Made by a program: the position numbers and the translations under genes
Notes under the pieces: model-generated
Database searches by the model: none
Told to the model about the DNA's origin: nothing
Seen by the model: the letters and a program-made list of their open reading frames with translations, nothing else
Source: Pseudoxanthomonas mexicana
GTDB taxonomy: Bacteria > Pseudomonadota > Gammaproteobacteria > Xanthomonadales > Xanthomonadaceae
Length of the DNA: 64,000 nucleotides
Assembly (NCBI RefSeq): GCF_010093385.1
Contig: NZ_PDWV01000001.1
Span: 124,001 to 188,000, forward strand
Direction of reading: 5' to 3'
Shown here: positions 37,529 through 41,497 of the stretch, piece by piece
Numbering within the stretch: position 1 is the stretch's first letter
Layout of the letters: every line of letters starts with the position of its first letter

Positions 37529-38002
37529 TCAGCCCTCGATGCGCCTGACGCCTTCCCCGGCCAGCTTGTCGATCAGCCGGTCCAGCATCGTCCGCTCCTC
37601 TTCGGTCAGCGGTTCCAGCATGCGCTGGTGGTATTCGATGACCATCGGCGCGACCTCGTCGTAGACCCGGAAGCCTTCGTCGGTCAGCGCCAGCACCGAG
37701 CGGCGGCGGTCGTCGCCGTGGATCTCGCGCTGGATCAGCGCCCGTTCCAGCAGGCGGGCCACCGCCCGGCTGACCGCCACCTTGTCCATCGCGGTCCGGG
37801 CGGCCACCTCGCCGGCCGACAGGCCCGGGAAGCGCCCCAGCACCGCCATGACCCGCCATTCGGTGATCGCCAGGCCGAAACGGCGGTGGTACTCGCGGGA
37901 AATCGCCCCGCTGATCCGGTTGGACAGCACGCTCAGCCGGTACGAAAACAGGCGGTCGAGGTCGAAATCGGCGTGGACGACGGGGTTGGCGGGTTCGCTC
38001 AT
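37529..38002 (-). CDS. MarR-family transcriptional regulator divergent from hppD
   Basis: 157 aa winged-helix regulator: LSVLSNRISGAISREYHRRF, then the recognition helix region MDKVAVSRAVARLLERALI and the wing with HGDDRRRSVLALTDEG (the DDRRR motif is typical). It is divergent from hppD with a 76-bp gap holding a perfect palindrome. A repressor responding to tyrosine, hydroxyphenylpyruvate or homogentisate is a reasonable inference, as for HpaR/HmgR-like circuits. Confidence 0.88.
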   Translation of the reverse strand: MSEPANPVVHADFDLDRLFSYRLSVLSNRISGAISREYHRRFGLAITEWRVMAVLGRFPGLSAGEVAARTAMDKVAVSRAVARLLERALIQREIHGDDRRRSVLALTDEGFRVYDEVAPMVIEYHQRMLEPLTEEERTMLDRLIDKLAGEGVRRIEG

Positions 38003-38024
38003 GCTGCGCTGCTACTTGTGGGTG

Positions 38025-38038
38025 GTTTCAGCTGAAAC
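38025..38038. promoter_or_regulatory. Perfect palindrome in the marR-hppD intergenic region (candidate operator)
   Basis: GTTTCAGCTGAAAC is a 14-bp perfect palindrome midway between the divergent starts (38002 and 38079). The size and symmetry fit a MarR-dimer site and could control both genes. Confidence 0.6.
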
Positions 38039-38078
38039 TATATTGGGGCGTATTCCGGCAAGCCTAGCGAGGTGCCCC

Positions 38079-39176
38079 ATGAACGCACAACCCAACCTGG
38101 GCATGCAGCCCACGACGTTCGACAACCCGATGGGCATCGACGGCTTCGAATTCGTCGAGTTCGCCGCCCCCGCCGGCCAGGTCCATCACCTGCACGACTA
38201 CTTCCGCAAGCTGGGTTTCGTCCAGGTCGCGCGGCACAAGACGCGGCCGATCAGCACCTACCGTCAGGGCGACTGTACGTTCCTGATCAACGAAGATCCG
38301 GACTCCTTCGCCGCCCGCTTCGCGGCCCAGCATGGTCCCAGTGCCTGCGGTTTCGCGATCCGGGTGAAGAAACTGGCCGAGTGGGCGCGCGTGCAGGCGC
38401 TGAAGAACGGTGCCGAATCGTTCGACGCCGCCGACGAACTGACCAAGGCCGTTGCCGCGCCGGTCATCAAGGGCATCGGCGACTGCATGCTCTATATCGT
38501 CGACCGTTACGACGACAAGGGCACCATCCATGACCCGGACTACGAATACCTGCCCGGCGTGGACCTGATGCCGAAAGGCTTCGGGCTGACCTTCATCGAC
38601 CACCTGACCCACAACCTCTACCACGGCAACATGGCCAAGTGGGCGGACTACTACGAGCGGTTGTTCAACTTCCGCGAAATCCGCTACTTCGATATCAAGG
38701 GCGCCAAGACCGGCCTGCTGTCCAAGGCGATGACCGCGCCGGACGGCATGGTGCGCATCCCGCTCAACGAGTCCAGCGATCCGAAGAGCCAGATCAACGA
38801 GTACCTGGACGCCTACAAGGGCGAGGGCATCCAGCACATCGCCTGCTTCACCGACGATATCTACACGACGGTGGAGAAGATGCGCGAGGCGGGGGTGGAA
38901 TTCCTGGATACGCCGGATACGTACTTCGAGGTGATCGACCAGCGCATCCCCAACCACGGCGAGGACGTCGCGCGGCTGGCGCGCAACAAGATCCTGATCG
39001 ACGCCGACGTGGAGACCAAGCAGCGCAAGCTGTTGCAGATCTTCACCCAGAACGCGCTGGGGCCGATCTTCTTCGAGATCATCCAGCGCAAGGGCAACGA
39101 AGGCTTCGGCGAGGGCAACTTCCAGGCGCTGTTCGAGAGCATCGAGCGGGACCAGATGAAGCGCGGGGTGCTGTAG
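38079..39176 (+). CDS. hppD: 4-hydroxyphenylpyruvate dioxygenase
   Basis: Fe(II) enzyme that makes homogentisate in tyrosine breakdown. 365 aa with two VOC-type halves. GFEFVEFAAPAGQVHHLHDY lies in the first half. The iron site is in the second: IDHLTHNLYHGNM (His), GIQHIACFTDDIY (His) and LGPIFFEIIQRKG (Glu), plus EGNFQALFESIE at the C-terminus. It is separated from hmgA by the DUF559 cassette. Confidence 0.97.
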   Translation: MNAQPNLGMQPTTFDNPMGIDGFEFVEFAAPAGQVHHLHDYFRKLGFVQVARHKTRPISTYRQGDCTFLINEDPDSFAARFAAQHGPSACGFAIRVKKLAEWARVQALKNGAESFDAADELTKAVAAPVIKGIGDCMLYIVDRYDDKGTIHDPDYEYLPGVDLMPKGFGLTFIDHLTHNLYHGNMAKWADYYERLFNFREIRYFDIKGAKTGLLSKAMTAPDGMVRIPLNESSDPKSQINEYLDAYKGEGIQHIACFTDDIYTTVEKMREAGVEFLDTPDTYFEVIDQRIPNHGEDVARLARNKILIDADVETKQRKLLQIFTQNALGPIFFEIIQRKGNEGFGEGNFQALFESIERDQMKRGVL

Positions 39177-39187
39177 GCTCCCGCTCC

Positions 39188-39227
39188 AAGCCCCTCTCCC
39201 TGCGGGAGAGGGGTTGGGGTGAGGGGC
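39188..39227 (+). repeat. Left inverted repeat of the DUF559 cassette
   Basis: About 40 bp: a hairpin CCCCTCTCCCTGCGGGAGAGGGG followed by TTGGGGTGAGGGGC. It is the reverse complement of the repeat at 39596-39635 except for a few loop bases. Confidence 0.85.
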
Positions 39228-39239
39228 AGGAGAACCACG

Positions 39240-39638
39240 ATGAAGATCCACCGCAGACCTCCCATGGCGACCCGATCCCTCGAGCGTGCGCGGGAACTGC
39301 GTAGTGGTTCGACGGATGCGGAGCGTAAGCTGTGGTCGGTCTTGCGTGGAGGCAACATCGACGGGCTGAAATTCCGCCGACAGCATTCCATTCCCCCCTA
39401 TACGGTCGACTTCTGCTGCTTGTCCGCTGGTCTGGTGGTTGAAGTCGATGGATCGCAGCACTCGGAAGAATCGGATCGCGCGCGAACCCGGTTTCTGGGG
39501 TCGAAAGGTTTCACTGTCCTGCGCTTCTGGGACAACGACGTACTGACGCAGATTGAAGCGGTGGTCGAGGCGATCTGCCGGACCGTCTCACCATCGCCCC
39601 TCACCCCAACCCCTCTCCCGTCGGGAGAGGGGCTTTGA
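39240..39638 (+). CDS. DUF559 (Vsr/restriction endonuclease-like) protein in a repeat-bounded cassette
   Basis: 132 aa with the DUF559 pattern: [58 protein letters not shown] (putative metal-site D..E) and [21 protein letters not shown]. This fold is close to very-short-patch-repair endonucleases. The last residues ([16 protein letters not shown]) are translated from the right inverted repeat. The gene sits between hppD and hmgA, which elsewhere are adjacent. The start at 39240 is favoured, with 39264 possible. Its biological role is unknown. Confidence 0.8.
39596..39635 (-). repeat. Right inverted repeat of the DUF559 cassette
   Basis: About 40 bp mirror image of 39188-39227 (GCCCCTCACCCCAACCCC then the CTCTCCCGTCGGGAGAG hairpin). 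The end of the DUF559 reading frame lies within it, and the hmgA start follows 15 bp later. Confidence 0.85.
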
Positions 39639-39649
39639 AGGCATCGAAA

Positions 39650-40957
39650 ATGAAGATGTGCACTGACGGCGATTACCAGACCGGCTTCGGCAACCACTTC
39701 GCCAGCGAGGCGATTCCCGGCACGCTGCCGGAAGGCCGCAACTCGCCCCAGCGGGTGGCGCACGGGCTGTACGCCGAACAGCTCAGCGGCACCGCCTTCA
39801 CCGCGCCGCGGGCGGAGAACCGGCGCAGCTGGCTGTACCGCATCCGCCCGGCGGCGATGCACGGGCCGTTCCAGCCCTACGCGCAGCACCGCCTGCACAG
39901 CGATTTCAGCGCCGGACCGGTGTCGCCCGACCAGATGCGCTGGTCGCCGCTGCCCATGCCGGAGTCGCCGACGGACTTCGTCGACGGCCTGTACACGATG
40001 GCCGGGAACGGCGGGCCGGAAGGCCAGCACGGCGTCGGCATCCACCTGTACGCCGCCAACCGGTCGATGCAGGGGCGCTACTTCTACGACGCCGATGGCG
40101 AGTTGCTGATCGTCCCGCAGCAGGGGCGCCTGCGCATCGCCACCGAGTTCGGCGTGATCGAGATCGAACCGCAGCAGATCGCCGTGATCCCGCGCGGCGT
40201 GCGCTTCCTGGTCGAATTGCCCGATGGCGAGGCGCGCGGCTATGTCTGCGAGAACTTCGGTGCAGCGCTGCGCTTGCCGGACCTGGGGCCCATCGGCTCC
40301 AACGGCCTGGCCAATCCACGCGATTTCGAGACGCCGGTGGCGGCCTACGAGGACGTGGAAGGCGAGTTCGAACTGATCGCCAAGTTCCAGGGCCACCTGT
40401 GGCGCGCGGACATCGGCCATTCGCCGCTCGACGTGGTGGGCTGGCATGGCAACTACGCGCCCTACCGCTACGACCTGCGCCGGTTCAACACCATCGGCTC
40501 GATCAGCTACGACCATCCGGATCCGTCGATCTTCCTGGTGCTGCCCTCGCCCAGCGATCCGCCGGGCGGGGGCAACATGGACTTCGTGATCTTCCCGCCG
40601 CGCTGGCTGGTGGCGCAGGACACGTTCCGTCCGCCGTGGTTCCACCGCAACATCGCCAGCGAGTTCATGGGCCTGATCCATGGCGTGTACGACGCCAAGG
40701 CCGAGGGCTTCGCGCCGGGTGGTGCGTCGCTGCACAACTGCATGACGGGTCATGGGCCCGATGCGGCGACCTTCGAGAAGGCGTCGAACGCCGACCTGTC
40801 GAAGCCGGATGTCATCGACGACACGATGGCCTTCATGTTCGAGACGCGCGCGGTGATCCGCCCCACCCGCCAGGCGGTCGAAGCCGCGCATCGCCAGCGC
40901 GACTACCAGGCCTGCTGGGCCGGCCTGCGCAGGCACTTCGTGCCGCCGCAGGCCTGA
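39650..40957 (+). CDS. hmgA: Homogentisate 1,2-dioxygenase
   Basis: Ring-opening enzyme of tyrosine/phenylalanine breakdown giving maleylacetoacetate. 435 aa with [77 protein letters not shown] (iron ligand His), [11 protein letters not shown] (Glu) and [14 protein letters not shown]. The ATG at 39650 is chosen; a TTG at 39635 and an ATG at 39656 are alternatives. Its ribosome site and upstream sequence have been replaced by the DUF559 repeat. The later pathway genes are not seen here. Confidence 0.96.
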
Positions 40958-40963
40958 GACCCC

Positions 40964-41497
40964 TCAGGAAAGGGACGCGTCGGCGCGGGCGTCCAGCAAA
41001 GCCTGCATGCGCCGCAGCGGCGCGTGCGGCAGCGCTTCGAACAGCCGGTCGCGGATGCGGCCGGCCAGCGTGGGCGCGACGCGGCCCTCGAGGAAGCCGT
41101 ATGCATCGGCCAGTGCTTCGAGCAGGGCCTCGTCATCCAGTCGTGCCTGCAGCCGGCCGCGATGATGTGCGGCCTCGGGGTCGCGCTGCAGTTCCAGCAT
41201 GCCCGACAGGTAGACCTTGGCCGCCACCAGCGAGCGACGCGTACCCGTCGAAGGCGTGATGGGTACCGCGCCCGAGGGTGGCGGCTGCACGGCCTGCTGC
41301 GTGGAGGGAGCCACCAGGTAGCCCGCCGAGACCAGGCGCTGCACCAGCAGCGGCGCGTCCTGTCCCAGCAGCCGCACCAGTTCGGCTAGGTCGCGTTGCC
41401 CATCGCAGAGGATCAGTGCGCGCCGCTCGCGCATGCCCAGCGCACCCGAGTGGGTCTGCAGCGGCTGCCGGGCGGGGTCGGTCTTGATCGGGCGCAT
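40964..41497 (-). CDS. Hypothetical protein with possible winged-helix N-terminus
   Basis: 177 aa with no signal or membrane helix. GMRERRALILCDGQRDLAELVRLLG followed by LVQRLVSAGYL has the look of a short winged helix; the C-terminal half is helical and ends RRMQALLDARADASLS. The start at 41497 (MRPIKTDPARQPL) is favoured. Convergent with hmgA. I do not recognise a function. Confidence 0.65.
   Translation of the reverse strand: MRPIKTDPARQPLQTHSGALGMRERRALILCDGQRDLAELVRLLGQDAPLLVQRLVSAGYLVAPSTQQAVQPPPSGAVPITPSTGTRRSLVAAKVYLSGMLELQRDPEAAHHRGRLQARLDDEALLEALADAYGFLEGRVAPTLAGRIRDRLFEALPHAPLRRMQALLDARADASLS

Follow-up and report, generated by a model that had tools for sequence, protein, structure and literature searches.

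What is a lone nuclease gene doing inside a frame built of one repeat, between two dioxygenase genes? The locus lies in the window, a stretch of 64,000 nucleotides from Pseudoxanthomonas mexicana. The flanking genes are hppD (4-hydroxyphenylpyruvate dioxygenase, 38079–39176, forward strand) on the left and hmgA (homogentisate 1,2-dioxygenase, 39650–40957, forward strand) on the right. The initial annotation had described a repeat-bounded unit at 39188–39637, and the arm, the lone gene and the inverted arm are all present in the sequence. The left arm (39188–39227, forward strand) is a triplex-type repeat with its tail toward the gene. It consists of a hairpin (39191–39213, loop 39201–39203), a second loop TT (39214–39215) and a mirror third strand (39216–39225). 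The right arm (39596–39635, reverse strand) is the same repeat inverted, with the third strand at 39598–39607, the second loop at 39608–39609 and the hairpin at 39610–39632. Each arm is 40 nt long, with a 10-3-10 hairpin followed by TT and GGGGTGAGGG on the gene-facing side; the two can be extended to 43 nt (39185–39227 and 39596–39638, 93% complementary). The gene itself (39240–39638, forward strand) matches the Pfam family DUF559 (PF04480). An alternative GTG start at 39219 lies inside the left arm. The final 16 residues of the protein are encoded within the right arm, as the initial annotation had noticed, and the ATG of hmgA at 39650 follows just past the arm.

The DUF559 gene is the only ORF between the arms; the other match was a sub-threshold REase. 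No Y1 HUH transposase or any other transposase of its own was found in the cassette, in agreement with the initial annotation. A gene flanked by inverted copies of a dispersed palindrome is nevertheless a trait of REPtrons, and this trait is present here. There are two copies of the 20-mer GAGAGGGGTTGGGGTGAGGG in the window (0 expected from shuffles) and no third. The whole genome (3.97 Mb) contains 12 exact copies of it, 19 matches to a 22-mer with up to 3 mismatches, and a single DUF559 match. Gene-less copies of the repeat, which the initial annotation had proposed to look for, do exist. The pattern CCCCTCTCCCNNNNGGGAGAGGGG, with a 4-nt loop, gave no matches because the hairpin loop is 3 and not 4. 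A reversed-pattern control for the 22-mer search (9 vs 9) is uninformative because the pattern is nearly symmetric; the exact-pattern controls gave 0 matches, except for one reverse-control match in G019. No structured RNA was matched in Rfam, either at 38000–41000 of the window at E 0.5 or at three loci at the gathering threshold. A role in anti-phage defence was considered and set aside: PADLOC gave a single weak match (DpdF, E 0.0015), and the endonuclease matches in PHROG were weak as well.

The window ORF matches DUF559 with an E value of 5e-36 (123.3 bits, curated cut-off 20.6). Pfam assigns no function to this family. An AlphaFold2 model of the protein is confident (mean pLDDT 88). The nearest solved structure found by Foldseek is a DUF559 protein (PDB 3hrl, E 1e-9). 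The catalytic domain of the homing endonuclease I-Bth0305I (PDB 3r3p) is matched with E 1.3e-5, and with E 5e-4 in a profile comparison, so the fold is that of the EDxHD homing endonuclease catalytic domain; the active-site positions align with those of I-Bth0305I in part only. The structural match to Vsr is weaker (E 0.015) and ranks below Toxoplasma mitoribosomal proteins. The Vsr/restriction-type nuclease named by the initial annotation is thus borne out as a DUF559 protein with a Vsr- and homing-endonuclease-like fold. Residues D45, E56, D58 and H62 (numbered by the first row of the alignment) are invariant across 20 diverse members of the family, and are probably catalytic. Purifying selection on the gene is strong: dN/dS is 0.06–0.23 in 9 pairs, and 89 of the 91 copies in related genomes are free of stops. 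Among other members, YcjD has been linked to Vsr by profile comparison (PMC1189080). The Caulobacter DUF559 protein VsrA has a genetic tie to DNA damage, interpreted in PMC12907096 as mismatch repair linked to a cytosine methyltransferase.

The frame is not peculiar to this locus. We collected 97 DUF559 matches from 45 of 61 related genomes and kept 91 in 42 genomes, dropping 6 that were fragmentary or weak. Each locus was scored by its best inverted repeat within 350 bp on either side of the gene; the window cassette scores 34. A score of at least 20 was reached by 62/91 DUF559 loci, compared with 4/473 neighbouring genes and 1/1533 random placements, both controls being drawn from the 60 DUF559 stretches of at least 8 kb. 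A wider set was taken from the best 80 DUF559 relatives among named genomes, including Chloroflexi, Cyanobacteria/Melainabacteria, Geobacter, Rickettsiales, sphingomonads, Acinetobacter and others. Of these, 79 were usable (L194 was dropped for a run of N), and at least 3 of the 79 (L157, L176 and L205) are also in the set of relatives. Here 45/79 loci scored at least 20, compared with 0/1386 random placements. We ruled out chance or repeat-rich surroundings as the cause of the pairing because neighbouring genes of the same stretches rarely score.

By eye, the arms fall into at least ten sequence families with a common plan, a hairpin outside and a G-rich tail inside. A simple rule recovers this plan in 99 of 124 arms, and inspection by eye in 19 of the remaining 25. 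A detector built from the hairpin and mirror-tail plan alone found the motif on at least one side of 70/91 DUF559 genes in the relatives (neighbouring genes, 8/497) and of 64/79 in the wider set (neighbouring genes, 2/92). The motif was on both sides of 48/91 and 41/79 DUF559 genes, compared with 1/497 and 0/92 neighbours. It points toward the gene in 118/148 cases in the relatives and 97/141 in the wider set, and away from it in 30/148 and 44/141. The detector found no motif at 21/91 loci of the relatives and 15/79 of the wider set. The gonococcal locus L186 has no clear flanking repeat (inverted-repeat score 10). DUF559 matches also occur in 31 plasmid records, and four of the five loci inspected there have the motif on one side. 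The pairing of DUF559 with triplex-type repeats is general and extends beyond related genomes, a larger pattern that is absent from the initial annotation. Two variants were seen. In six loci of distant taxa in the wider set (L149, L155, L162, L168, L189 and L213) the arms by eye appear reversed, with the tails outward. At the location called site 1 (L026, L045, L049, L082, L114 and others), DUF559 lies directly upstream of a gene that we take to resemble NAD synthetase, often with an upstream repeat only, as if it had joined an operon.

The plan of the arms is that of a motif already described. The intrastrand triplex motif, earlier called BoxC or PIT, is a hairpin whose adjacent purine tract mirrors the stem (PMC4666352). 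Both window arms have this build, with a pyrimidine–purine hairpin and, next to it, a mirror third strand rich in purines. Since the G-rich tail of the palindrome mirrors the purine strand of the stem, one strand could fold either as a hairpin or as an intrastrand triplex. The mirror relation is maintained across loci: over 79 distinct site-and-stem arms (27 of 220 arms were left out for want of a usable stem or tail), the mean score of stem–tail mirror covariation is 0.65, compared with 0.49 when the tails are permuted among sites, and 0 of 1000 permutations scored as high. According to the main text of PMC4666352, E. coli K-12 has 23 such motifs, always intergenic, and in its five inverted motif pairs a type A always stands opposite a type B. 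Folding into a triplex was shown there in vitro for single strands, and stable triplexes in vivo are described as lacking support. The same text links the motifs to local instability and reports no association with mobile elements. The words 'endonuclease' and 'ycjD' do not occur in it, and the motif is assigned to no enzyme.

We then ask what the repeat does away from the gene. We call the hppD–hmgA type of repeat A (its gene location is site 0) and a second type B. We inspected 15 of the 19 A copies of the window's own genome, leaving out the two of the cassette (L005 and L006), L013 as the partner of L003, and L020 with 3 mismatches. Among these 15, a B arm is the partner of eight by pattern and of a ninth (L007) by eye; two are paired with an A arm. 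The ten gene-less elements that were measured span 120–184 bp. The other four copies include L008 and L009, which are the ends of one longer element. That element (L008:1488–2264, contig 42) is about 750 bp long, with inverted A arms at its ends, no convincing ORF, and an internal second palindromic repeat (GGCCCTACTTTTCTTTGC ... GCAAAGAAAAGTAGG). The B tail forms a small second stem with compensatory variation (GCCCGAAGGGC, GGCCGAAGGCC, GGCGCGAAGCGCC).

Eight places of the own genome with an A–B pair were compared across five relatives. The pair is present at 8/8 places in G014, 7/8 in G022, 6/8 in G007, 1/8 in G013 and 0/8 in G021, and G021 has no DUF559 match. In G013 a damaged pair remains at two further places. 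The spacer between the arms is often very different between genomes at one place, with the arms retained. A solo hairpin stands in L131 where the relative L133 has a pair; such solo hairpins could also result from slippage between palindromes during replication. A joined-flank search and alignment at the eight places brought no recognisable target-site duplication to light; the flanks there are too diverged, and other palindromes occupy several of the empty places. Two further observations concern these places. At one further place in G007 (L319, the place of L019), an F3-like pair (F3 being another of the repeat families) stands where other genomes have an A–B pair. Some A hairpin loops (L012, L015, L018, L019 and orthologous places) contain a GGCGACCGCAGGAAGTCCCTGT-like segment of 22–23 nt, which is present or absent between genomes at the same place. 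The dispersed entity is the gene-less repeat pair and not the gene.

The gene behaves differently. Single-linkage clustering on the flanking ORFs groups the 91 DUF559 genes by location into 24 clusters. Within the genus, 13 of 23 genomes with an hppD–hmgA locus carry the cassette there, so cassette-free sites exist and not every locus has the gene, a point on which the initial annotation had made its reading depend. Two of the 10 cassette-free sites (G010 and G006) keep a solo hairpin, and the spacers of five (G004, G011, G012, G021 and G024) contain no hairpin, GTAG pair or other ORF. By eye, the spacer of G013 (L052) has a GTAG-type palindrome pair where relatives have the cassette, and those of G008 (L071) and G015 (L073) have a different small ORF, similar in both. 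Outside the genus, six hppD–hmgA loci of the same order that were inspected have no cassette, and G056, of another family, carries it. The site-0 type of cassette is also found between hppD and hmgA in three Xanthomonas loci, in Lysobacter spongiae, in Thermomonas haemolytica and in two proteobacterial MAGs. In occupied sites both flanking palindromes are whole.

Trees were calculated for 88 of the 91 DUF559 genes and for 18 of 20 site-0 sequences. All 19 site-0 genes of the genus group together in a single clade (93/95). The cassette tree splits 11 genomes that form a fully supported clade in the flank DNA, and this clade is rejected for the cassette (AU p 0.0024). G019, G023 and G030 have a cassette interior like those of G026 and G018, with flanks close to G000. 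Since the cassette tree conflicts with the flank tree, the interior has been exchanged while its location stayed fixed. A freely jumping cassette finds no support as far as the gene itself is concerned: it stays at conserved sites (the 24 clusters, and hppD–hmgA in several genera), though alleles are exchanged. Of the mobile, possibly homing-like cassette of the initial annotation, the exchange at its own site therefore stands, and the roaming of the gene copy does not.

Repeat and gene are also matched in type. Over the 14 clusters whose arms are clear, the more alike two DUF559 proteins are, the more alike their repeats tend to be (Mantel r 0.37, permutation p 0.0018). Copies of A were counted in 37 genomes of the genus. 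Their median is 15 in the 19 genomes with a site-0 gene and 0 in the 18 without (p 2.5e-7, ignoring kinship), and the contrast holds when the two cassette copies are subtracted (p 2.3e-6, 37 genomes, again ignoring kinship). In four genomes with a B-type DUF559 only, the A counts are 0, 0, 1 and 4. For A and B copies taken together, the median is 34 where an A- or B-type gene is present (23 genomes) and 2 where both are missing (14 genomes; p 1.3e-5, ignoring kinship). The contrast is less sharp for F3 and its matching gene (p 0.004, and 0.019 after subtraction, ignoring kinship). For the family F5 it is p 0.0006, and 0.11 without the cassette copies, again ignoring kinship and with copies too few to judge. 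There are exceptions. G004 has 16 F3 repeats and no DUF559 match, and without an A- or B-type gene G024 has 35 B copies, G002 has 18 B copies and G008 has 8 A copies. The number of DUF559 genes correlates with A+B copies (rho 0.58). The number of Y1-transposase genes also correlates with repeat copies (rho 0.38 for A, 0.53 for B; these correlations, too, ignore kinship), and general repeat-richness may therefore play a part. In G049 (contigs C12, C21, C24 and C26) B-type repeats were seen in regular tandem arrays with a spacing of about 88 or 99 bases.

The E. coli member of the family, YcjD, has the same neighbour. Downstream of ycjD, K-12 has a triplex motif, which is no. 9 in Table 1 of PMC4666352 (1,351,204–1,351,239). 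In strain S1-SRB-02-B an inverted motif lies within the 3' end of ycjD, as it does in the window gene, and K-12 is without 12 nt of this motif. The two sapF–fabI loci L325 and L281 show this 12-nt difference in ycjD length. The passage on ycjD in PMC12817139 notes the 12-nt difference at the 3' end and leaves the motif unnamed. The gene was found in 3365/5426 genomes. Its absence is not a clean empty site because, in strains without ycjD, the eef operon occupies that place (PMC12817139). We took 60 E. coli genomes at even steps from 5399 records. In 36 of them the ycjD-locus copy is matched along its full 44 bases. The median number of motif places is 19 in these 36 (12–28) and 5 in the other 24 (1–19), a contrast with few independent lineages behind the genomes. 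In a spot check, three of the 36 had ycjD beside the match, once frameshifted, and two of the 24 had motifs at other places.

We lean towards the explanation that DUF559 is the dedicated nuclease of triplex-type palindromes and promotes their spread or conversion, in the manner of RAYT and REP with unrelated chemistry. The cassette would be the enzyme-bearing member of a repeat system, and its small nuclease would be dedicated to the framing repeat. The nuclease would nick or cut the folded repeat, perhaps at a loop. Repair from another copy would then spread or convert whatever lies between two repeats, and that interval may be a short spacer, as in a REPIN-like pair, or the DUF559 gene itself. 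The occurrence of the pairing in many bacteria suggests that DUF559 supplies the enzyme that a widespread repeat has so far lacked. A broader version is more tentative, and we hold it to be somewhat doubtful: that DUF559 proteins, YcjD included, are the missing enzymes of BoxC/triplex repeats across many bacterial phyla, forming a second counterpart of RAYT and REP with independent chemistry. There the homing-endonuclease-like protein would recognise and cut the repeat folded as a hairpin or as three strands, and in this way copy or convert both the pairs and its own gene at palindromes.

The repeats might instead be spread by a RAYT-type Y1 transposase or an IS, with DUF559 as cargo or as a resident of repeat-rich spacers. 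Y1 matches in 50/61 genomes, whose number correlates with repeat copies, and GTAG-type palindromes seen by eye in the same genomes speak for such a passenger. The Y1 genes themselves do not: A, B or F3 repeats lie within 500 bp at 0/30 Y1 loci examined, compared with 58/91 DUF559 loci, and several of these 30 have GTAG-type palindromes of their own. RAYT ownership of the repeats is thus without support among these loci. With neighbouring genes rarely carrying the triplex motif (8/497) and the repeat family following DUF559 similarity, we regard this explanation as quite improbable.

We also think it unlikely that DUF559 is a housekeeping, structure-specific repair nuclease that resolves hairpins or triplexes, the flanking repeats being regulatory or co-inherited and nothing being spread. 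The strong purifying selection, the Vsr-like fold and the tie of VsrA to DNA damage (PMC12907096) all agree with it, and solo hairpins and loop changes could be products of repair. It leaves unexplained why the gene stands between two inverted members of its own repeat family, and why the cassette is exchanged at one site. A strict homing element, whose nuclease would cut cassette-free hppD–hmgA alleles so that repair copies the cassette in, draws on the fixed site in several genera, the exchange across lineages, the homing-endonuclease-like fold and the solo hairpins as possible targets. Against it, several empty sites (G021, G011 and G012) have no palindrome of the A type, insertion destroys no obvious target because an occupied site keeps its two flanking palindromes intact, and part of the data could also be explained by vertical inheritance with losses and ordinary recombination. 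Its probability seems to us low. The dedicated nuclease of the palindromes remains the explanation that we favor.

Triplex repeats, those of E. coli K-12 included, have been described as a source of instability, without a named enzyme (PMC4666352). We found no link between DUF559 and triplex-type repeats in the literature searched, which covers few subscription journals. As the pairing is systematic, the repeat and DUF559 each gain a testable partner. If the proposed partnership is real, it would suggest that partnerships between a nuclease and dispersed palindromes, as for RAYT and REP, arose at least twice, with unrelated enzymes.

YcjD of E. coli, NGO0050 (PDB 3hrl) and VsrA of Caulobacter are of the same Pfam family as the window protein. 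Like the window gene, ycjD has adjacent triplex motifs; for VsrA, the string 'palindrom' does not occur in the main text of PMC12907096. EDxHD homing endonucleases such as I-Bth0305I (PMC3943268) share the fold and the exchange of a gene at a fixed site, whereas the DUF559 cassette lacks introns and inteins, encodes nothing besides the catalytic domain and has no known target. With the BoxC/PIT/triplex motif the window repeat shares the hairpin and mirror third strand, the intergenic location and the inverted pairs of A and B copies; the difference is that a nuclease family is paired with the motif here, and the main text of PMC4666352 names none. The architecture is also close to that of the REPtrons (RAYT/TnpA-REP) as described in PMC3733652, PMC2817692 and PMC3116915. 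In both, a chromosomal gene is framed by inverted palindromes, gene-less palindrome pairs occur in the same genome, and there are several repeat families, each with its own type of enzyme. Here, however, the enzyme is a DUF559 nuclease and not a Y1 HUH transposase, and the palindrome has a mirror G-rich tail and is found at 0/30 Y1 loci. The system would work like RAYT and REP, but with no Y1 transposase it is not a REPtron, and it resembles a homing system with a putative cleavage step.
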